Part shown: positions 1 to 42,086 of the stretch, piece by piece
Layout: every line of letters starts with the position of its first letter
Numbering within the stretch: the first letter of the stretch is position 1
Origin: Globomyces pollinis-pini
Lineage: Eukaryota > Chytridiomycota > Chytridiomycetes > Rhizophydiales > Globomycetaceae
Assembly (NCBI GenBank): GCA_025399215.1
Contig: MU621156.1
Coordinates: 1 to 64,000, forward strand
Direction: 5' to 3'
DNA length: 64,000 bases
Notes under the pieces: generated by a model
Databases searched by the model: none
The model's input: only the letters and a program-made list of their open reading frames with translations
What the model was told of the DNA's origin: nothing
Made by a program: the position numbers and the translations under genes

Positions 1-246
1 GATTCTGCTGTAATTCCGAGACCAGACGAACGTGCTGGTGAAATCCCAAAGGCATACGTTGTTTTAAAACCAAACATGAAGGCAACTGAACAAGAAATCT
101 ATGAATTTATGAAATCAAAGACTTCTGAGATCAAATGGTTACGTGGAGGAGTTGAAATCATTGATGCTATTCCAAAAAGTGCTTCAGGAAAGATTTTAAG
201 AAGAATCTTGAGAGACTTGGACAAGAAAAATCTTGCTAAATTGTGA
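1..246 (+). CDS. Acyl-CoA synthetase / 4-coumarate-CoA ligase family, C-terminal end
   Basis: The window opens inside this gene. Frame 1 reads about 81 codons to a TGA at 244-246. The visible part is the C-terminal AMP-binding subdomain: D-E-R-A-G-E-I-P-K-A-Y-V near the start, then PKSASGKILRR, the family's A10 motif with the catalytic lysine that acts in adenylation. Enzymes of this family activate a carboxylic acid with ATP and pass it to CoA. The substrate (fatty acid, aromatic acid or other) cannot be told from this fragment. It ends with KNLAKL, which resembles neither the SKL peroxisome signal nor another clear sorting signal. It converges with the nucleoporin gene, 85 nt between the stops. 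Confidence 0.9.
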   Translation, partial: DSAVIPRPDERAGEIPKAYVVLKPNMKATEQEIYEFMKSKTSEIKWLRGGVEIIDAIPKSASGKILRRILRDLDKKNLAKL

Positions 247-331
247 TTTGAATGTACCAATAAATCCATGAACCTTTAATTTTATTTTGTTAAACTGCTA
301 AATACTTAAAGTACTATTTTATTTTAGGATA

Positions 332-3300
332 CTAACGTCGTTGTGGACCACCTCTTCGACTCTTTGGTGTAATGATAGCTCTACCAGCAGGCGGCCGAAT
401 TTGTGGAGCTGCTCCGGCATTAAATGCAGGTGGTGTAGGAGCATTGAAGGTAGGAGCAGTGGGACCAGCTGAAAAGTTGAAACTACTTCCAGAAGAACCA
501 AATGCGGGTGGAGCAGGTTGAGCAAAGGCATTGGACTGTGGAGTCTGACCAAAGGTACCAGGTTGAGAAGACTGTCCAAAGGTATTTGGTTGCGAAGATT
601 GACCAAAAGCAGGTGGTTGTGAAGGCTGTCCAAAGGAAAATCCTTGTGAAGGTTGTGCTGTTGCAGGAGCTTGTGATGTTTGGCCAAAGGCATTTGTTTG
701 TGGTGTTTGGCCAAATGGAGGCGGCTGTGTCGATTGTCCAAACCCTGTTTGTGATGATTGTCCGAAAGCATTCGCTTGTGTTGGTTGAGCATTGGTAGAT
801 GGTGCAGGCTGGCCGAATCCAGTTGGCTGAGATGGCTGTCCGAAGGCTCCAGTTGATGCTGGTGCGGATTGGCCAAAAGCAGGGGGTTGCGTAGATTGGC
901 CAAATGCAAAACTTTGAGGCTGTTGGCCAAATGAGGAAGCTTGAGATGGCTGACCAAAGGTGTTAGTTTGTGGGGGCTGACCAAAAGCACCAGCTGCTGG
1001 TTGTTGTGATTGTGCTGGCTGTTGACCAAATGCAGCCGTTGGTTGAGAAGGTGTCGCAGTAGATCCAAAACTAAAGCCAGTTGTGGTTGATGGTGTAGTT
1101 GATGGTGCTGTTGTACCAGGCTGGCCAAAAGCAGGTTGTGTAGGCTGTCCAAATGTAAATGATGTTGACTGAATCCCATTGGTACTCGACGGTTGGCTAG
1201 CTGTTGCTGTAGGTGCAGGTGCAGGGGTTGTGGAAGCACCAAACGCTGGAACACTCGAGAAAGGTGTGGCTGTGGATGAAACTGCTGGTGCTATCGAACT
1301 AGTGGCAGCAAGTGGTTGAGCATTAGTTGTTGGAGTAGAACTAGGCGCACCAAATGAAAATGGCTGTTGTCCATTTGAACTAGGTGCAGAAGAAGCCTGT
1401 CCAAAAGGTGCTGCTGGAGTCTGATTTGGCTGACCAAAATTGAACCCTCCTGTAGCGTTTCCACCAGTACCACTTGTAGCATTTGTATCCTTTGTTCCTC
1501 CAGTACTTGTTGCTAACCCCGACCCAAAAGAAAATGATGGTGCTGCCGTATTGGTAACTGGTGCAGGAGTTGGTGTTGCAGTGTTAGACAAAGTCCCAAA
1601 TTTAAAACCTGATGACGGAGTCTCCTTAGCATCAACACTTTGCGTCTCTGGTTTCGAAGCAGATCCAAATTGAAAGTTAGTGGATACTGAACCTGTACTG
1701 GAAACTGGATTGGCACCGAATGTAAACCCTTTCGTGGAATCTGTGTCCTTATTATTTAAATCTTTGCCATCTGTTGCTACTGCTCCAGCACCGAAAGCCA
1801 ATCCTTTTGGTGTATCTGGTTTTTTAAATGATGGCTCTATAGAAGTTGACGCAGGTATGCTAAATGATAAAGATGCTGTAGTTCCTATGGTATTATTCCC
1901 AACGGTTTCGGGTTTAGAATCTGTGGCTGTTGTAGAGTTTCCAAATGAAAAGGTATTCGTTTGTACTTGGCCTGCTGTAGCGCCAAAAGAAATTGGTGCC
2001 TTGGCATCTGCATTCTTTGAACTATCAGCAGCTGTACTGCCAAATGAAAAGGTTGGTTTATTATCTGTTTTTTGAGTATTTGAATCAGTGGATCCAAACG
2101 AAAATGCTGGTTTAGAGTCCGACTTTGAAATAGTATTCGTTTCAGTGTTTTCGACAGTATTTGCTTTTGGTTTGAAAAAATCAACTACTGTAGCTTGACT
2201 TTTATCAGAGCTTAAAGTAGCTGGACTTTCTTTCGTTGCAGTGCTACCAGTGGCATTTGGAATTGTGAAGGAGAATGGTTTAGCTGGGGATGCTTGCTTG
2301 ATGTCTACTGTGCTATCGCTTGATTCCTTTGCCTTTCCGAAGCCGGCTGAGAAAAGTGGTGGCTTTTCTTTGTCAGTTTCTGGTTTAAAACTGAAATTTG
2401 GTGTTGGTGTCTGTGATAAACCACTGGACGAATCAGGTAAATTAAAAGTGACAGTTTTGCTGATTTCCTTTAAACTTGGAGAAACAGTCGCCAATGGTTT
2501 TGGTGCAGTAAAGACAAAGTCTTTTGCAGTTGGAGCTACACGATGAGTTCATTATCTTCAAACCTTTCTCAGTCTCGTTTTTATCAGATTTTCCATTCAT
2601 TTGATCCAAAACAATTTTTTCTAATTCTTTATCATCCATAGATTCCCATAAAGGCATTCTACCATCTGATTTGATAGCTGTTGTTCCCGCCAAGGACAAT
2701 CGACCAGCCCAAGGACTACTACCATCTGTGTCTCTCTGCCTGAGTATAGGTTTTGGTCTTTGAGGAGTAAAACTGCGACGAAATCGGGGGGTTACTGATG
2801 CTGTACCAGGGACATCCATTCCTAGTTTCTAAAAGATAAATAATTGCTTGTTTACTGCATAGTATTCTTTCCGGCGCTGTTTAATTGCTTCTACATCAAT
2901 CTCCTCTAATCGAACTCTTTTTCCGTGATCCTTAGATGACAAGAAATTTTTTCCATCCTTAGGACGAACTGTTTCTTCCACATCCGCCTTACGCTTTTCG
3001 GGACCTTCATTTCCAGTCATTGATACGTCATTCATTGTCGGTCTCTCTCGATGAGCATTTTCAATATCGTCATGAATTTTTGATTTGCTACTGAAATCTG
3101 CACCGGACATACTTTCAATAGCAAGAACTCTAGCTTTGACAGGTATATTGCTCTTGCGGACCTATATTGTTATCATAGATTGGATTACAGAACCAGGCGT
3201 CTTGAGTGCTGCTTTCGACAGCCTAGCTGTCTTTTTCTTTCCTATACTTGTTGGTGTTTGTGTGTCCTTCTGACGATTAATATGAAGTGTGCTTACAATT

Positions 3301-4184
3301 CGATCTTGCTTGGAAGATTTTTTCTTTCTTCGTGGAGTTTCTAGAACTGCTGTTTGGTTTTGGGATTGTATCGTTGCATTTAAAGAGATTGACTATAAAA
3401 TAAGATTCCGAACACCTTACCTCTTCCCGAACTTCAGATTGAGAATAAATTTGACCCAGTGGACTAGGTGTTACTGGCATATGATTTGCTCTATATCCAG
3501 TTGAAACATTTTTCTCTGAAGAAGTGGACAGTAAACTGCTAGAAGTTGGTTGGTCTTGCCGTAATTCATTCTTTGATTCGAATAATGAATATTCAGGTTC
3601 AAGGTCTAACGATAAATTGACCTTAAATTACCATCTGGCACGTTTAGTTGTAACCGTGGTGAGTGTTGCCTTGCTGAAGGAGAATCAATTTGGTCTAAAG
3701 CTGAAAAATTGTTTGAATGAGTTTTAGATTGAAATGGTGAAGTAATTCCTAGTCCTGGGTATGAAGATGGTCGATTTGTGTTTTCTAATATTAATACAAT
3801 GAAGTTACTTGAAAAAGGAGATGGACGAGCAGCGTTAACAGGGACTGCGAATGGGTTTTCAGAAGTGGAGTTATTGTTTAAGCGATTGGATCTCAATCGT
3901 AATTGACTCATTGGTACAGCAGGAGTAGTTTTGAATGGAGTAGGTACTGGATCCACTTTAAATTAGTAAATTTGATAAGGTTACAAGTAGGTTTAAATCT
4001 TTGTTCGTAACTAATAAAGTTAGTGAAGATAAGAATACAGTTTTAATTGTTTTTCCTTTTGTTTTCTAATTCTGAACTGATTCAATTCATATATAATATA
4101 TAAACTTGATAGTAAAGTCAATACAAATATTAGTTTATAGTATTGTAACCAATAGTAATCTATCAAATCACTAACAGTCTTCAT
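332..4184 (-). CDS. FG-repeat nucleoporin with N-terminal transmembrane segment (POM121-like architecture)
   Basis: Ten exons and nine introns of 24 to 29 nt give about 1,202 residues in one frame. Exon 1 starts at 4184 with MKTVSDLIDYYW and holds a hydrophobic stretch at about residues 15-33, followed by a basic run (RIRKQKEKQLK). The middle is basic and probably disordered, with NLS-like clusters (TPRRKKKSSKQ, GKKKTARLSK) and PSPLGQIYS. The last two thirds are FSFG and then FGQ repeats, with an almost perfect FGQ spacing around residues 950-1130. The end is basic (ITPKSRRGGPQRR). FG repeats line the nuclear pore and bind transport receptors. I infer anchoring in the pore membrane by the N-terminal helix. 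The alternative is a Nup1/Nup153/Nup124-type basket protein whose first exon I have mis-joined. Introns include 3785-3808 (24 nt) and 3393-3420 (28 nt). Confidence 0.85.
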
Positions 4185-4235
4185 TAAAAAAATAAACAAA
4201 AAAAATTCACCTTTCACCTGATTGACATTACTTTA

Positions 4236-5173
4236 TTAATAAATTGTTTGTAGTTTTTTGCATTGTTTGATCAGTATAGATGCATTGAAAGATTGTCCAA
4301 TAAAAATCTTACCAATACTCTGGCGATTACTTAGTACTTGATAAAGTAACTCAAGCTCTTGTATATCAAATCGATTAGGTTGTTGATAACTTTTCATCAT
4401 ATGTAGACTAATTTCAATTGGAATACCTATTCTTTCAAGTTCAGGTACCAATATTCGACAAAATAATAACATAAATTGACATGATCGATTTCGTAATTCA
4501 TTAACCATTGCCTGTTCCGCGAGGTAGGTTCGAATTGTTACTGTTTTCGCATTATACAAAGGTCCTTGTCCATGAACGTTTGTTGTCTGTAATTCACACC
4601 CTTCAGATACTAAATACTGAATTATATCTACAAATCCTTTGATAGCTGCGACATGAACTGCTGTATAATTCTCGTGGTTTTTTGCATCAATATCAGCACC
4701 AGCTTCAACCAGTAACTTTACAACATCCAGCCGTTTAGTAAGAACAGCAACTGTCAGTGGGGGATTTCCCCCAATATGACTACCAAGTCGTGCACCAGCA
4801 CTTATCAGAAACTCAATTACATCTAGGCGTCCAGAACCAGGTGCTGCAATCGCAATTTCCAATGGTGTTAGTCCAGTACGTGAGTGTTTCTCCAGTTCCG
4901 CTCCTGCTTCTGTTAGTATTTTAACACAAGCAAGATTTCCCGCAGCAGCAGCATAATGAAGAGGAGTCTCGCCTGTAATGTTAAAGTACTTCGCTAAGCA
5001 ATACCTGTAACAGATACTCCAAAAATAACCTTAGGGTCTTGCCTGATTAACTCTAACAAATCATCTGGTTTCCCAACTTTACAAGCATCATAAACACTCA
5101 TGACACTCTGAGGTGAATTCAGGTTTTTTAATGGGTTTTTGGCAATAGTTGGCCCAAGAGAATAAAATCGCAT
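4236..5173 (-). CDS. Ankyrin-repeat protein
   Basis: Two exons with a 32-nt intron (4973-5004) encode about 301 residues. The N-terminus is short and hydrophilic (MRFYSLGPTIAKNP). Ankyrin repeats then follow: GETPLHYAAAAGNLACVKIL, RLDVIEFLISAGARL, RLDVVKLLVEAGADI, HENYTAVHVAAIKGFVDI. The last 100 residues carry no recognisable motif and may form helices. Ankyrin repeats bind other proteins; the partner is unknown. The start was chosen because it gives an exon that joins in frame to the first repeat, and no earlier ATG lies in that frame. It lies 51 nt upstream of the nucleoporin start, on the same strand. Confidence 0.8.
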
Positions 5174-5286
5174 TTAAGAGAACTACAAAGTGGTAGTGTT
5201 TAAATATACAATTATGAAACTGAATCTGCCACGTAAAAACGTGAGCCACATGTTGATTTGCAGTCATTAATGGTAAGATTAATTTA

Positions 5287-6991
5287 TTAAGCTTCTGCTA
5301 ACGTGTCCCAATAGTTGACGAATGAGCCGGACATGCTGGCAAGAGTTCTCAGGTCAGGTTTATCATTCAATTCCAAATCGTCAACTCCAATTGATGGAAT
5401 CTGTAAATCCTTCATCCAAGAATCCCAGATACTTCGAGCGATTTTCTGTGCTGCAATTCGTCCACCAAAGAGATTTCCAGCAGATGGACCAACTGACAAT
5501 GCACTATAACCGCTCATCATGAAAAGGTCCAGTCCTGGCCATTTTAAATCAGAGCTTAGCTCTGGTAGTCCTCCGTACACAGGGGCAGGATAAAGCTTTT
5601 GCAGTTCTTGAAAACAAAGATCTTTTTGAATATCCATTACTGCTCCTGTACCTAACCAAATCATGTCAAAGGATTCCATATCTTCGTTTGAGAATCGAAC
5701 TTTCCATTCATGATCTTGCCATTCTGCCGAAGCAACAGTGCTGCATTGCCGCATTTCAAGGACATTTTTGCTTTTCAGCTGTTCAAGTAAAGCCATGTAT
5801 TCAGGAGTAATACTTCCACCATCTTTGGCATTTGCAATTGCTTTGCGACGGTCACTTCCACTCTTTTGCCAAAATTTACAGTGAAGTCGGTTACTATTTC
5901 GTCCAACCCATTCTAGTCCTAAATCAAATTGTTTGGTTTTCAATTTTGAACGCGAAGCCAGGACAATTCTGGTGAATCCATACTTGTCACCTAATTTAAC
6001 CAATTGAGCACTAGTAAGGCCTCCTCCTACAACAAGTAACTTTTTTGGAATCAAATGGGGAGGAACAGGGACTTTTTTCTTGTTGGCAAGTTCTATAGAA
6101 TGTACAATACGATCTTGTGGATACGTATCAAGAGGGATTTTTTGAACAAATTCAGGAATTAAAGGAATGTTTGCGTTTCCCAAGGCACATACTACTTTAC
6201 GGCTATAAACTACTTTCTTGAACTCATGTTCAACAACATCATGACCTCCCAAACAACAATCTCTATCTTCGGATTTTTTAGTTACAGAGACTTTGTAAGT
6301 AATTTTGAAAATATCGCCATTTGGACCTTTGATTGGTAGAATTTCAGTAACCATGCCTTGAGTAACAAGATCGTGGATGAAATAACGATCAACTAAGCTA
6401 CCACAGAAATCACTGAATAAGGATGAGCTGGGAGTACAAAACTGGTTTCGATCATTTTCAGTAAAATTTCGAGTACCCTTTTTTCGTTTAGCTTTTTTAT
6501 CACCATCAACAACACTGGTAATATCTTGTAGTTCACAAGTTCGTTCTTGGGTTTCTGCAAAGGCAAGTAGAGCATTGGGATCAAGGGGGTCAGGATGGAA
6601 ATAGATTGGTGATCTTAAATGTTTGATGTTATAGGCATGAAAACTGTTGTTCCACTTTTCCATCCATCCACCAGCTCCATCGATGACTAGCATACGCTTT
6701 CTGCACGAGTTCAAATCCAAGGTTGGACAGCAAGGATAGAACGGGGGAGCAAATTGACCACCAGATTTCCCAATATGGTGGAGTCGCTGGTGATCAGCAT
6801 CAGACAGAACATCAAATGGAGACTTTTCAAGTAATCGACAGACCAAACTGAGAGCATGGGGACCAGCTCCAACTATGACAAGATCCAAAATGTCTTCTTT
6901 ACAGAGTTCTGATGTTAAGGACTATAAACAAACCTTCTCTATCCATTTTGCTTTTATCAGCATCGGCAGTACATGGTTGATTAAGCATCAT
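5287..6991 (-). CDS. FAD/NAD-binding oxidoreductase (FAD-NAD(P) binding, lysine/ornithine monooxygenase-like)
   Basis: About 559 residues in two exons; a 25-nt intron (6909-6933) joins MMLNQPCTADADKS... to the flavin domain. The main exon begins with the dinucleotide-binding motif DLVIVGAGPHALSL and has a second one further in (LLVVGGGLTSAQLVKL). IWLGTGAVMDIQ and the late GPSAGNLFGGR fit the FAD-contacting C-terminal part of fungal FAD/NAD(P)-binding proteins distantly related to L-lysine N6-hydroxylases. The substrate is unknown. The adjacent genes give no pathway hint. Without the intron the frame would have to start at a TTG, so the spliced ATG start is preferred; a second in-frame ATG (MDREE) lies just downstream. 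Confidence 0.8.
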
Positions 6992-7182
6992 AAATTACTT
7001 TGATATGTTGAAATCAATGAGTACCTTTCTAGTTATAAATAGCCACAAGTGGCTTGCTTAACTTTGGGTTGAAATCGATCTGAAACGTGAACCACTCTTT
7101 AGGAGAAAAGGAATGTAAAAATACAGATCATATACATTAAAATAGTGACTTTTGACCGATATATATTGAAGAAATGCAATTC

Positions 7183-8034
7183 TTAATTACCACACCATTT
7201 TAAAACTTCATGACGAATGTTTGGGATTTCTAAGCAACGAGCTTTCAAGTCAGTACCACAAAGGGCTCGGCATTGATGAGGTTGGGTTTTTATACACTGA
7301 TTTAGTGCCTTCGAACATGCGCGTAGGTGAGGAGATACTTGTTGCTGGCTTTTACAATGTTGAGCAAAAACAGGATGATCAAGACATTTGCCAGGACATT
7401 GGTTTTGAAGAACCCATTTACCTACAAGTTAGATGTATGACAACTTACCTCCATTACACTGTAAGAATAATGATCCGCTACAGTAAAATTGATTTGCTTG
7501 GGCTGGAGAACAATGTGCGCCAATAGTAGGTCCATGAGGTTTGCCGCCAGATTGATCATCACCATTTGAGCAACTACCACTGGTATAATATGGCTTTATT
7601 CTACCCCCAATCAAAATAGGTCGGCAATGTGGGCCAGTACCAACGTTAACTGTAGCAAATGGCTGATTGGCATTATTTCCACAAGTCTCCAATGAAGAAT
7701 ATAATTTTGCGGTAACGGCATTGTTGACACATGAAAATGCAATGTTTTGCCAGTTGATGCGAAGACATTTTCCAAATTCGACATTCGATGGGGTACCAGA
7801 ACATTGAGCATTATCAAAAATTTTCAAAGTTTTAGCAGATCCAAGGGAATTCTCTTCTACTTTGCTCACTTCAAAAGTGTGATGATTTTGACCAGTGGAC
7901 TCTTTTGGCACGCCAGATAATTCAAGTAAATCAGGTAGGGCAGGTAAGTCAGGTAATTGTTTGGCTGACACGTTAGTCAATACGAAACTGATTGCAAGTA
8001 GTCCGATAGGATTGATCATTGAAGTTGAAATCAT
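7183..8034 (-). CDS. Secreted cysteine-rich protein with CBM19-like chitin-binding region
   Basis: About 274 residues in two exons. The N-terminus (MISTSMINPIGLLAISF..., then SAK) is a signal peptide. The middle region has scattered cysteines and no family I know. Near residues 175-225, CSPAQANQFYCSG followed by LFLQCNGGKWVLQNQCPGKC has the cysteine and aromatic spacing of carbohydrate-binding module family 19, which binds chitin. A 27-nt intron at about 7424-7450 splits this module, so the intact module is seen only after splicing. The last 60 residues add ten more cysteine/histidine-rich positions. Likely extracellular or wall-bound. I chose the second ATG region because it gives a proper signal peptide; the frame extends further upstream with no such signal. 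Confidence 0.7.
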
Positions 8035-8525
8035 ATCTAAATGTTTTTTTCGATTTATAGCATTGGCGAAGTAGTCGGCGGAGTGATTTGTGAGCTCCGC
8101 AACCATCAAGTGACAATTAAGGCTGACAACAAGGTCGCATAATTGACATTCGTTCAGTCTGGGCAATCAAAGTATATGTCCTGTAAGATACAATATTGAT
8201 TCAGATGATACATCACGTTAAGTAAAATATTACAGCAAAGCTAAGTAGACAAAAAATTCATTATGATCATAAATCAAATGAATAATAAATATTCTTGATT
8301 TGTTGATCTTGGATGGTATTAGTTTTGTAAATTTAGGGATTCACGCCGAGCGATCCAAACCACTTGTTCCAATACCCATGATGTTCACATCATCTGAAAT
8401 AGTTTCCTGATGATTTAAAAATTAAATTAGTAAAAGTGACGAACAAATCTTCAAGGCTTTTCTAGAATCATTGTTTCGTTTTTCAAAAAAACGTATTGTC
8501 ATTGTGTACTATTTTAACCAAGAAA
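8035..8525. promoter_or_regulatory. Divergent intergenic region
   Basis: 490 nt between the starts of two divergent genes (secreted CBM19-like to the left, S(V/I)FDRLG protein to the right). It must hold both promoters. It is AT-rich. I see no ORF, repeat or RNA gene in it and no clear operator. Confidence 0.4.
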
Positions 8526-9226
8526 ATGCCAAACAATTCCAATCAATCTGGAAATGCAAAAGAAGAGTTGTTACCAAATGGTATGTAAACAGTAGTTGAT
8601 AGAACTTAGTGGATAAGAGTTTCTTTGAGACACCACATGCTTGGGAAACTACTCCTGTAGAGGAATCTAATAATCAACCTCAATCTAAACGAAGAGAAAA
8701 GGAAGTTCGGAATTTATCACCATCAAGAGTCAAGGGAAAAGGATCCCCAAAGAAAAACAAGTCAAGAGCAGGTTCTCCCCCAAAGCATAGCAGTGTGTTT
8801 GATAGACTGGGTGCTCCAAATGCAAATGAGCGAACTACATCTAACTCACCTCCTAAAAAATCGGTTTTTGACCGGTTAGGATCAAAGGGAAACTCCACAG
8901 ATGATTCATATGAAACTCACAGTAATTCCAAATCGTCAATTTTTGATAGATTGGGTCCTAAAGATAACACAACACATTCAAGGAATAGTACCAATGAACG
9001 TATACATAAGAAAGAGGTTGTGAAATCAGAAACAAACAGCAAGACAAAAGACAAACGAGAGGTTTTGACACCAAACCTAAAAAAGCGTAATACTCAACAT
9101 GAAAATAAAAGCAAAACCTTGGACGAAAAACCTGCCAGAATCATAGAGAAAGTTCCCGACAAATATGAAGGTGATTGGGCAGAGATTGATGATGAGTTTG
9201 ATTACTCTGTACCAAAATGGGATTGA
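8526..9226 (+). CDS. Disordered basic protein with three S(V/I)FDRLG motifs
   Basis: About 223 residues; a 29-nt intron (8581-8609) joins MPNNSNQSGN... to the body. The protein is rich in S, K, N and R and probably disordered. The motif S(V/I)FDRLG occurs three times at roughly 33 to 37-residue spacing (near residues 72, 105 and 138), each flanked by P, G or S. A conserved-looking acidic/aromatic tail follows: WAEIDDEFDYSVPKWD. I do not recognise the family. Similar short FDRLG-type linear motifs occur in RNA-processing proteins, so an mRNP role is possible but is only an inference. The repeated motif suggests multivalent docking to one partner. Confidence 0.65.
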
Positions 9227-9451
9227 GAATAGTTTGGAATGAAACCACCCAATATTTGTAATTTATATCGAAATAAAACAACAGATGGTAAAAGTTCGAT
9301 TGGAATATTGATCCAAATCAAAAATTCAATGTTTTGAGCAAAAAATGGAAATTTATAAACTTAAGAATTCTAATCCTTCAGAAGTGGGTGTCAGTCCAGA
9401 GTTTGCTATATATGTATCACTCCTAGTATTGATTAGTTTCTATAGATCAAA

Positions 9452-10662
9452 TTACCAGAACTTTGTAAAATGTCTAGACCCATGATCACAAAGAATCGTG
9501 ACGATGGTATGGCCTGGTCCGAGTTGCTTAGCTAATCTTACTGCTGCAACACAGTTAACCGCTGATGAACTTCCGACAAAAATACCGTCTTCTCGAACTA
9601 AGTATCTGGACATTTCGACTGCTTCTATATCAGTGACGCGAATTGCATCATCAATCCACCCACCCAACAACTTTTTGAAATTGGCTGTTAATCGATTGAT
9701 TCCAACACCTAACAATGAGATAATCTGATATCACCTTCAACAATTGTGTCTACTTGGTGACGTTTTCTAGTTCCCTCGGCCTCCTGCTTGGCGTACATAA
9801 CATTAAATTTCACTTTGTTATATAAACCACTACCTTCTGGATCAGCCAATACCACCTTCAAGTGGGGAATCTTAGGTTTTAGATAGTGAGTAATTCCAGC
9901 AAGAGTCCCACCAGTTCCTGCGCCCATAACAATTGCGTCGATTTCGCCGCCAGTCTGTTGAAATATCTCTGGTCCTGTAGTTGTGAAATGTGCCTAATCC
10001 ATTATAAAATATTTTACCATGAACTCACATCAAAATTAGCCTAATCATTTAGCTTTTAAAAGAGCACTAACCAAATTCTCAAACTGATTACAAAAGAACC
10101 CCCGCTCTTTTGAACTCAGATTGTCTGCTGTAACATTCATATCATTAGCTCTCTTTTTGGCCAGATTTACAAAGTGATTAGGATCAACAATTGAGCATGG
10201 TTTAACTAATTCTACTGTTGCTCCCAGTTTCATCAACAATTCTGATTTTTCAACTGCTACATCATCTACATATTAATACAAACAAATTTAAAAAAGACCT
10301 GGCATTACAATATGGCATTTGTATCCCTTTGCCTTAGCTATGGTAGCTAGAGAAATTCCAGTTGATCCTACAGTTCCCTCAAATATGCAACAATTTGTGT
10401 TTGGTGAGATTAATCCATCCTTCTCAGCTTGATTAATAATTGATAAAGCGACTCTATCCTTTGGACTTCCAGCAACGTTTAAAAACTCTGCTTTTGCAAG
10501 GATTGTACAACCAGTTGCCTTTGACAGTGATTTTATTTTTACCATTGGAGTGTTACCAATCAGGTCCTCTACACCATTTGCTACAACTGATTTTTTCTTT
10601 TTAAAGTAGAAATATCCTAGTAACAATAATCCTATTCCAATTGCGACTCGTTTTGTAGTCAT
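9452..10662 (-). CDS. Membrane-anchored cysteine synthase (Mcy1-like PLP enzyme)
   Basis: Five exons, introns of 26, 35, 31 and 33 nt, about 361 residues. The N-terminus MTTKRVAIGIGLLLLGYFYF followed by KKKKS is a membrane anchor with a basic stop. The catalytic body follows the cysteine synthase/cystathionine beta-synthase fold type II: LIGNTPMVKI, the PLP-lysine context (AGSPKDRVAL), GSTGISLA, VMGAGTGGTLAGI for phosphate binding, EGVGINRLTANF and GSSSAVNCVAA. Family enzymes make cysteine from O-acetylserine or act on homocysteine. The anchor resembles the yeast outer-mitochondrial-membrane enzyme Mcy1. The PLP lysine lies in SPKDR, and the usual TSGNTG loop reads GTVGSTGIS, with the asparagine replaced by a serine, so activity should be tested. 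An in-frame upstream ATG exists, but the chosen start leaves the anchor at the N-terminus. Confidence 0.85.
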
Positions 10663-11557
10663 CACTTTTAGTGAGAAAATGTTTTTCCTGATGAATACAT
10701 TTGTAGTGACAATAGTGGACTTTAACCCAAAATCATTCATCAGATTAACCTGTTCAAAGTGTCGAATGGTGACCAAGATTAATCCAAGTGAGGTGAACCA
10801 GTTTTCAAATCTCAGCGATTGTTCAAACTGCCTTCATAGTAACTTATCCCTTTCTTATTTTACCATTGTAAGCTGGTCTACACTAACTTAAAGCTATCGG
10901 TTATATGTGATTCCAAAGCCTTTCAATTGTTAGCATTCGATGAAGCTATCCAGTCTTTTTTCGGTAGATTAACTCGTCACTTATGATATAGGATGTACAG
11001 CATTCGAGTATTTGTCAGTTCGTTGGATCTTAAATTGATGTTAGTCTTGTAAAAATAACGCCCATTTGAACTTGTTGTTCACAAGAAGTATAATTTCAAC
11101 ACTATGTTACGTTTCAGTCAAACCAGTGGGGAAAAGTAGCACTGATATGATATTGGAATCAATATGGCCTGTATTTGGGCAAGTATCATTCAAACAACTG
11201 CAAGTATGTCACACTTATTAGTTTTAACCTCAGACTTCATTTGAGAAACATGAAATGCAGAGCAATGTCCGATCGACTATACCCAGTTATGATATGGTTA
11301 CTCCGGAAAATTCGACACGCAAACGAAAAGCAATTACATGAACATTCGGATCATCAGTAATGATTGAAATAGAATAGACTCTAATAATAAATGTCGATAG
11401 ATGTAAGTAATTGACTGACTACAACCATATATTTAAAAACGGATACCTTATCTGTTTTGTATCCTCGGAAAAATTACCAAGCACATAAAACACCATAATA
11501 TGAGTCATTTTGTCCACCAACTATAAATTGAACAAGAAATTTTGGTTTCATACCAAA
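10663..11557. promoter_or_regulatory. Divergent intergenic region
   Basis: About 895 nt between the cysteine synthase gene (left) and the first NmrA gene (right). No ORF above about 70 codons with an ATG, no tRNA and no clear repeat. It is one of the largest gaps in the window and probably carries the promoters of both genes. Confidence 0.4.
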
Positions 11558-12442
11558 ATGACTGAAACATTGCTTAATTCTGTGTTGATTGTGGGAGGAA
11601 CTGGGGGAGTTGGAAAGTACATTGTTGCTGCATTATTACAGGACCCTTTCTTTACTAATGTTGGAATCACTACTCGAAAGGCAAAAATGAACGAAAAAAA
11701 GGAAAGTCTTTTAAAATCATATGAAGAACAGGGTGTCCATGTATACATTCTTGACTATGAAGATGAAGCGTCCCTCACATCCGTTCTGAAAGAGTACACC
11801 ACTGTGGTTTCTTTCACCGACGGAGACGCATTTGGATTCAACTTGATTGATTTGGCTGGACAGGCTGGAGTCCAACGATTTGTCCCGAATGTATGGGGTG
11901 TGGACTACGTTGTAAACAACCATTTACCTTGGTTGGCACCGCGAGAGAAAATTAGAGAACGTGTAGTCTCATCTGGAATGGAATACACTGAGTTTATTGT
12001 TGGATTCTTTTTGGAGAATATATCGGTCGGCGGTGCCGTTTGGAATGGAATCAACTTGCAAGAAGGCAAAGCAACATTTTATGGAGATGATGATGCACCA
12101 ATTTCATGGACACATCGTCGAGATGCAGTAAAGTACTTTGTTGCAGCTCTCAAAAATCCATCACAATCTCGCAATCGAACTTATCGCGTTGAAGGAAGTA
12201 GGGTATCAATGAAGGCGTTGGCCGATATGTTTGACGCACGTTCTGAGAAGAAGCTGGAAAGGACATTAGTTAGTCAAGAAGAAATCATAGAAAAGAATCT
12301 GAAAATGAAACAGCCATTCGCAGTAATGGGAGGAAGTGGGACAGCGGTTGTCAATCCTAATGGAGAACCAATTGATAATGTATTGTTTGCAGATATTATT
12401 CCTACATCTGTGTCAGAGTGGTTAGTTGAAATACACCAGTGA
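11558..12442 (+). CDS. NmrA-like / isoflavone-reductase-like NAD(P)-binding protein, copy 1
   Basis: Intronless, 294 residues. The N-terminal motif VLIVGGTGGVGKYIV is the GxxGxxG Rossmann loop of NmrA/atypical SDR proteins. A cofactor-selecting region follows (GITTRKAKMNEKK). There is no YxxxK pair at the classic position, as expected for atypical SDRs that sense NAD(P) or reduce phenylpropanoid-like substrates. The ATG at 11558 aligns with the start of the tandem copy; an upstream TTG extension does not. The next gene is a close paralogue (about three quarters identical by eye), so this is a recent tandem duplication. Function unknown; a redox sensor or reductase is likely. Confidence 0.85.
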   Translation: MTETLLNSVLIVGGTGGVGKYIVAALLQDPFFTNVGITTRKAKMNEKKESLLKSYEEQGVHVYILDYEDEASLTSVLKEYTTVVSFTDGDAFGFNLIDLAGQAGVQRFVPNVWGVDYVVNNHLPWLAPREKIRERVVSSGMEYTEFIVGFFLENISVGGAVWNGINLQEGKATFYGDDDAPISWTHRRDAVKYFVAALKNPSQSRNRTYRVEGSRVSMKALADMFDARSEKKLERTLVSQEEIIEKNLKMKQPFAVMGGSGTAVVNPNGEPIDNVLFADIIPTSVSEWLVEIHQ

Positions 12443-41429: not shown

Positions 41430-41861
41430 TATTTGAAGTAAGATTTTTCTCAACCAAAATCAAGGGAATACAATAATACAAGCCACAAATCGGAAACTCC
41501 TCTCAAAGAGCAACGGTATACCTAGAAATGAACGAATTGGATCAATTGATTGTTGAATAAAGCATCGAACCATACAAATTGGGTTTGGGAAATAGAGGTG
41601 TTAGTAATCTAGTGGTGAGTAAAAGTAAAAGGATGCCTTAATCAGCTTCTTTAACAATCAAAATCTTTCATTTACATATTTCTAGTTTAATAGGCGACTC
41701 TTGTCAATAGACAAAGGAAAATTCTTCACTATTAAAGATTATCAGTTATATAAGGTCATATATAAAATCAAAATGTAGATGACATGACACTTGTATCACC
41801 TGCTAGTTCAATGGACTGGTGTGTGAGTCAGGGTGGTCGGAGTTAGTGAATAGTATTTCAA
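41430..41861. other. Intergenic region before the tRNA cluster
   Basis: About 430 nt. No protein gene found. Just before tRNA-Lys, at 41802-41855, a stretch with an A-box-like core (TAGTTCAATGG) occurs but lacks a B box and a foldable cloverleaf, so I do not call a tRNA. Confidence 0.35.
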
Positions 41862-41934
41862 GCCCGGCTAGCTCAATCGGTAGAGCGTGCGACTTTTAAT
41901 CGCAAGGTTGGGGGTTCAAGTCCCCCGTCGGGCT
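41862..41934 (+). tRNA. tRNA-Lys (UUU)
   Basis: 73 nt, no intron. Acceptor stem GCCCGGC/GTCGGGC (one G-U), D arm with GCTC...GAGC, anticodon stem TGCGA/TCGCA with loop CTTTTAA (anticodon TTT), T arm GGGGG-TTCAAGT-CCCCC. First of three tandem tRNA genes. Confidence 0.97.
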
Positions 41935-41938
41935 GTTT

Positions 41939-42011
41939 GGGGGTCTAGCTCAAATGGTAGAGCGCTCGCTTAGCATGCGAGAGGTACTGGGATCAATGCC
42001 CAGGTCCTCCA
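41939..42011 (+). tRNA. tRNA-Ala (AGC)
   Basis: 73 nt, no intron. Anticodon loop TTAGCAT with AGC, on a stem CTCGC/GCGAG. T arm CTGGG-ATCAATG-CCCAG. Acceptor stem GGGGGTC/GTCCTCC has a G-U pair and one U-U mismatch at the sixth pair, unusual but tolerated in many alanine tRNAs. Starts 4 nt after tRNA-Lys. Confidence 0.93.
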
Positions 42012-42013
42012 AA

Positions 42014-42086
42014 GCTTCCTTAGCTCAGTTGGGAGAGCGTAGCACTGAAGATGCTAAGGTCGTGTGTTCAATCCACACAGGGAGCA
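42014..42086 (+). tRNA. tRNA-Phe (GAA)
   Basis: 73 nt, no intron. Acceptor stem GCTTCCT/AGGGAGC, anticodon stem TAGCA/TGCTA with loop CTGAAGA (anticodon GAA), T arm GTGTG-TTCAATC-CACAC, discriminator A. Starts 2 nt after tRNA-Ala. Confidence 0.97.

Follow-up and report, generated by a model that had tools for sequence, protein, structure and literature searches.

Our analysis indicates that a chytrid fungus, Globomyces pollinis-pini, carries a genuine nucleoporin gene on the minus strand of the window (the whole 64,000-nucleotide stretch of DNA that was analysed), and that the encoded protein has a probable transmembrane anchor. The reading that we favour, and regard as probable, is of an FG nucleoporin that crosses the pore membrane once and faces the pore, POM121-like in its working and perhaps of the Nup1/Nup153 type by descent. 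What can be read directly from the DNA is an open reading frame, a best splice chain leading to a hydrophobic exon, the hydrophobic stretch itself, a basic flank, FG repeats and a basic tail; location and function are matters of interpretation and are worded accordingly.

The gene model, rebuilt from sequence, extends from 4184 to 332 and comprises 10 exons and nine introns of 24-29 nt (in order 28, 29, 24, 26, 28, 27, 27, 27 and 28 nt; sum 244 nt), with a coding sequence of 3609 nt that specifies 1202 amino acids in a single frame, without internal stop, through to a TAG at 332. The original prediction of nine tiny introns, one frame and 3609 coding nucleotides was thus reproduced exactly. 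No second copy was found among the best-scoring candidates in the assembly (18.5 Mb, 459 contigs). The features are arranged as follows:

4236..5173, minus strand: ankyrin-repeat gene, the upstream neighbour, with one 32-nt intron in the model and its stop at 4236
4039..4184, minus strand: exon 1, residues 1-48, with the predicted transmembrane helix at ~16-34 and then the basic flank
4011..4038, minus strand: intron 1, 28 nt, GTATTC...CTAAC...TTAG, ranking at the 34th percentile in the self-trained set of 73
3985..4010, minus strand: microexon 2, 26 nt, YEQRFKPT, required by the sole chain with every intron in the trained length range
3956..3984, minus strand: intron 2, 29 nt, at the 1st percentile, with a weak AAG acceptor that is also implied by the public protein HDV02_005244
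3809..3955, minus strand: exon 3, DPVPTPFKTTPAVP and then Met73 at 3911
3784-3632, 3605-3421, 3392-3297 and 3269-3189, minus strand: exons 4-7, linker and first basic (NLS-like) patch
3161-2856 and 2828-2564, minus strand: exons 8-9, mixed-charge region ahead of the FG repeats
332..2535, minus strand: exon 10, in which FxFG repeats with charged spacers give way to an FGQ-rich region without charge, followed by a basic C-terminal tail and TAG

The N-terminal hydrophobic helix with a basic stop, and the long FSFG/FGQ repeat region, that had been claimed for this protein are both recognisable in its composition. The hydrophobic stretch covers residues ~16-34 and is of moderate hydrophobicity: its best 19-residue Kyte-Doolittle mean of 1.56 falls slightly below the classical transmembrane cut-off of 1.6, and its best 17-mer has an unweighted biological-scale sum of +0.51. 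The flank behind it, at residues 35-60, is basic (8 K+R vs 3 D+E), while residues 1-15 in front carry 1 K+R vs 2 D+E. Across residues 10-45 the hydrophobic moment in 18-residue windows is 0.06-0.14, and an AlphaFold2 single-sequence model folds residues 1-48 into one helix from 3 to 47 with a mean pLDDT of 94.7; the low moment and the single predicted helix together make a membrane-spanning helix more likely than one lying on the surface. A single N-terminal transmembrane helix, as in POM121, is therefore predicted, contingent on the joining of its exon. Beyond the flank come a mixed linker and a basic patch at 239-300 (18 K+R, 4 D+E); charges are mixed from there to ~480, and FxFG repeats with charged spacers follow. 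The protein contains 34 FG (13 FxFG and 20 FGQ) between residues 534 and 1147, FxFG being the repeat type of Nup1, Nup60 and Nup153; residues 850-1160 contain 22 FG, are FGQ-rich and have no charged residues at all, and a basic tail follows. This composition suggests a long, disordered, pore-facing body without folded domains that ends in FG repeats, which is likewise a feature of POM121.

In proposing how such a protein might operate, we suppose that the helix would span the membrane, leaving the short N-terminus in the lumen of the nuclear envelope and the bulk of the protein facing the pore, as the positive-inside rule would require. The basic patch, lying ~200 residues along a linker without recognised domains, may act as a signal for import to the inner nuclear membrane. 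Once there, the protein would anchor basket or ring nucleoporins and hang its FxFG and FGQ repeats into the channel. POM121 itself is a binding partner of Nup155 and of the Y-complex. With regard to descent, it may be a chytrid protein of the Nup1/Nup153 type in which a transmembrane helix has taken the place of the amphipathic helix of yeast Nup1 and Nup60.

All of this depends on the hydrophobic exon being joined to the remainder of the gene. We assessed the join with an intron model self-trained on 264 kb (the window and 20 stretches of 10 kb, in which 8164 bases were N), from which the nucleoporin introns were excluded. The training set consisted of 73 introns of 25-37 nt, commonest at 27-29 nt and mostly of the form GTA...TAG; the upper bound was in part set by the finder, which accepted introns of 20-45 nt and was blind to longer ones. 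In this genome sample 71 of the 73 measure 25-33 nt, a size that is, to our knowledge, among the shortest in fungi, and gene callers that assume a longer minimum intron would consequently miss exons. Judged against this set, introns 4, 5, 7 and 8 lie at the 47th-81st percentile and introns 3, 6 and 9 at the 8th-10th, with intron 3 (24 nt) falling 1 nt under the training range. The low rank of intron 2 is mainly due to its AAG acceptor, which it has in common with 3 of the 73.

When introns of up to 45 nt were permitted, four ATG-started chains reached exon 3, all beginning at 4184, and that of the ten-exon model scored highest. Permitting introns of up to 200 nt, with starts below 4235, gave 32 chains, among which only that of the ten-exon model has every intron as far as exon 3 within 25-37 nt. 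After dinucleotide shuffling of the upstream 278 nt, a chain of at least equal intron score arose in 31 of 3000 sequences and never with at least 56 amino acids. Overlapping slices between called genes yielded 187 such chains in 4092, 28 of them with at least 56 amino acids, and these slices between self-called genes necessarily contain missed exons; a transmembrane-like stretch was present in 4 of the 28, at a threshold of 1.5 that was set after the value of 1.56 was known. An ATG followed by at least 48 open codons, taken alone, occurred in 72 of 5000 shuffles, and counts of GT..AG distances over the window produced an excess too broad for use.

Some observations count against the join. The codon log-odds of exon 1 is neutral (-1.07 over 48 codons), and exons 4-8 of the same gene are also below zero. 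Its GC-content is 0.22, and that of exon 2 is 0.27, compared with 0.26 in introns, 0.31 in short intergenic DNA and mostly 0.35-0.46 in exons 3-10. Third-position GC is 0.23 in exon 1, within the 0.12-0.37 of the other exons, and so its low overall GC can reflect a hydrophobic, Tyr- and Lys-rich make-up. The unaided gene finder called just 3110-332 of the nucleoporin gene. Just 51 nt separate the ankyrin stop from the nucleoporin start, whereas the smallest of 28 gaps between called genes on the same strand is 113; the starts in this comparison are imprecise, and one of the gaps is the ankyrin/nucleoporin pair itself, miscalled as 1125. Overall, we regard the joining of the helix exon as well supported, short of proven.

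If translation instead began at Met73 (3911), the gene would encode an ordinary soluble FG nucleoporin and the hydrophobic exon would be a product of chance or a separate small open reading frame. The start contexts do not discriminate between these options, that of Met73 being no worse than that of Met1 (32nd vs 28th percentile among 47 called genes), and a start at Met73 would widen the gap to the ankyrin gene to ~325 nt; the neutral codon score and intron-like GC of exon 1, and the frequency with which shuffles produce an open frame of its length, point in the same direction. However, the 14 codons before Met73, which such a start would leave untranslated, have a coding-like score of 4.43. 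Among 15752 overlapping stop-free windows that lie outside called genes, 0.06% score as high, as do 4.2% of 1720 coding windows. The public protein likewise reads through this stretch, and the rarity of comparable chains in the shuffles and slices is a further objection, so we consider a soluble protein quite unlikely as the sole product. A human soluble Pom121 without the membrane anchor has been reported (PMC4888837), and by analogy Met73 could also serve a soluble form. Even with the exon joined, its helix might be peripheral and membrane-binding, or signal-like, and form no stable transmembrane span, after the precedent of yeast Nup1 and Nup60 (PMC8700311). Hydropathy just under the usual cut-off is consistent with this, as is the hydrophobic moment of residues 1-18, which reaches 0.45. 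Yet the moment is low throughout the hydrophobic stretch proper, where an amphipathic helix of the Nup1/Nup60/Nup153 kind is not apparent, and a basic stop lies behind it; this we rate as about as unlikely as the soluble protein.

The public record HDV02_005244, from Globomyces sp. JEL0801 (Rhizophydiales), bears on a further alternative, that ankyrin repeats are spliced directly onto the FG protein. Over the 1085 residues that align, this protein differs from ours by 5 substitutions, and it shares the tiny introns after exons 3, 4, 8 and 9 with the ten-exon model. When mapped on the window, it splices the ankyrin gene into nucleoporin exon 3 through a 471-nt intron (4427|3955), thereby skipping nucleoporin exons 1-2, with the transmembrane exon, and an ankyrin tail of 64 open codons. 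A PDB search with the record returned ankyrin-repeat proteins among the best 60 of 407 matches; for the ankyrin neighbour, every NCBIfam match fell well short of its cut-off and reflects ankyrin repeats only. The fusion stands in the protein database, and its implied donor scores 6.43 vs 3.97 for intron 1 and 2.89 for intron 2. Nevertheless, it demands an intron far outside the 25-37 nt of the 73 self-trained ones (under a finder that allowed 20-45 nt), and the tail that it skips is coding-like (+3.2) and has its own stop. The same record omits 59 nucleoporin residues (exons 6-7), and it reads the start of one ankyrin repeat differently from our model and, judged by eye, less typically. We judge the fusion to be mis-spliced, a false join of an ankyrin-repeat protein and a nucleoporin, and think it very improbable that the record is correct.

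For the membrane-anchored FG nucleoporin that we prefer, a profile search lent no support to homology with POM121: none of 24736 Pfam models matched at E<=1; this includes the RanBP2-type zinc fingers that characterise Nup153 and the domains of Pom34, Pom152 and Ndc1. Without any such match we describe the protein as built like POM121 and do not assign it to that family, noting that profiles for nucleoporins are reported to have limited sensitivity (PMC10034585). Protein searches with residues 1-520, 352-482 and 1-120 recovered only HDV02_005244 and no homologue outside Globomyces, among proteins 0.55-1.75 times the query length that share 5-residue words (in one search, the best 7987 candidates were scored). 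Scans of viral and genome contigs with a 410-residue piece from Met73 onwards found no relative, and no plasmid record matched positions 1-12000 of the window. In the PDB there was nothing for residues 1-482 at E<=1, and the N-terminal 83 and C-terminal 52 residues gave chance matches only; the FG part weakly resembles Nsp1 chains (E 1.4e-5 for the whole sequence), with no single stretch passing alone.

The structural layout of the protein does have analogues in other organisms. Vertebrate POM121 is described as having one N-terminal transmembrane segment, an unstructured pore-facing body and NLS stretches ahead of C-terminal FG repeats (PMC13242641, PMC5450191), and while the chytrid protein shares the order of parts, with a basic patch that is a candidate NLS between the predicted helix and the repeats, it is fungal and has no detectable sequence similarity to POM121 in the Pfam comparison. 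The original prediction holds for the order of transmembrane, basic and FG segments in a fungus, which the sequence and the exon-join tests support; homology to POM121 finds no support in the Pfam comparison. Its further contention that the layout is confined to animals was too strong, because TtPom121 of Tetrahymena is reported to combine an N-terminal transmembrane segment with C-terminal FG repeats (PMC5450191). That protein belongs to a ciliate, is macronucleus-specific, and is likened to ours here by its layout. Yeast Nup1 and Nup60 and metazoan Nup153 are also FG nucleoporins with an N-terminal membrane-binding helix (PMC8700311), although their helix is amphipathic and peripheral, and the chytrid protein has neither zinc fingers nor any other Pfam domain. 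In yeast, the N-terminal amphipathic helices of Nup1 and Nup60 are reported to become vital without Pom34 (PMC8700311). In trypanosomes, NUP65 is said to carry a transmembrane helix in place of the lipid-packing-sensor motif of related proteins (PMC11825100); it is a member of the Nup53/35 family and its helix is C-terminal, but it sets a precedent for the replacement of a peripheral motif by a transmembrane helix in a nucleoporin. In the literature searched, which comprised titles, abstract openings and passages and lay largely outside subscription journals, no transmembrane FG nucleoporin is described in a fungus. The layout is known from vertebrates and a ciliate and, as far as we have searched, not from fungi.

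Published accounts differ on whether POM121 is a vertebrate invention or an old protein that has been widely lost. Surveys restrict it to vertebrates or chordates (PMC2951903, PMC6371224), while a review from 2021 places it among the candidates for an origin in LECA (PMC8421043). A chytrid protein with the layout of POM121 makes the age of transmembrane FG nucleoporins testable. One scenario is that the protein is a true relative of both POM121 and Nup153/Nup1, derived from a membrane-anchored FG nucleoporin that predates the split of fungi and animals and was kept by early fungi such as chytrids; Dikarya would then have made the transmembrane helix amphipathic, as in Nup1 and Nup60, with Pom34 covering for the lost anchor in ascomycetes. 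We consider this scenario unlikely, if still a serious possibility. Similar proteins in other chytrids may have been missed, since a 26-nt microexon and 28-nt introns make the helix exon easy to overlook and the public annotation hides it behind a gene fusion.

The genome also encodes nucleoporins of recognised families. Ndc1 is present, as are Pom152-type Ig domains, with three matches on one contig, two of them above the cut-off, so that fungal pore-membrane proteins would coexist with the transmembrane FG nucleoporin. We know of no description of FG repeats in Pom34, Pom152 or Ndc1, which resemble the proposed protein in being integral nucleoporins of the pore membrane. Models of Pom34, the Pom152 transmembrane domain and the first NUP210 Ig domain had no match in this genome, nor any in the control genomes, and so these negatives do not demonstrate absence. 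The Nup98 autopeptidase domain is present, and Ran-binding domains occur at two places. A second FG-repeat stretch, at C308:16414-16917, is 38% identical to the FGQ part of the nucleoporin.

Several other features of the window deserve mention. An open frame ending in 1-246 on the plus strand, which by its motif looks like the C-terminus of an acyl-CoA synthetase/ligase, stops 85 nt from the nucleoporin stop. On the minus strand, the gene at 5287-6991 contains an L-lysine/L-ornithine monooxygenase domain (PF13434, E 5.7e-7) and is possibly a siderophore-type hydroxylase. Finally, three tRNA genes (Lys-TTT, Ala-AGC and Phe-GAA) lie head to tail on the plus strand at 41861-42086, separated by gaps of only 2 and 1 nt in a very tight array.
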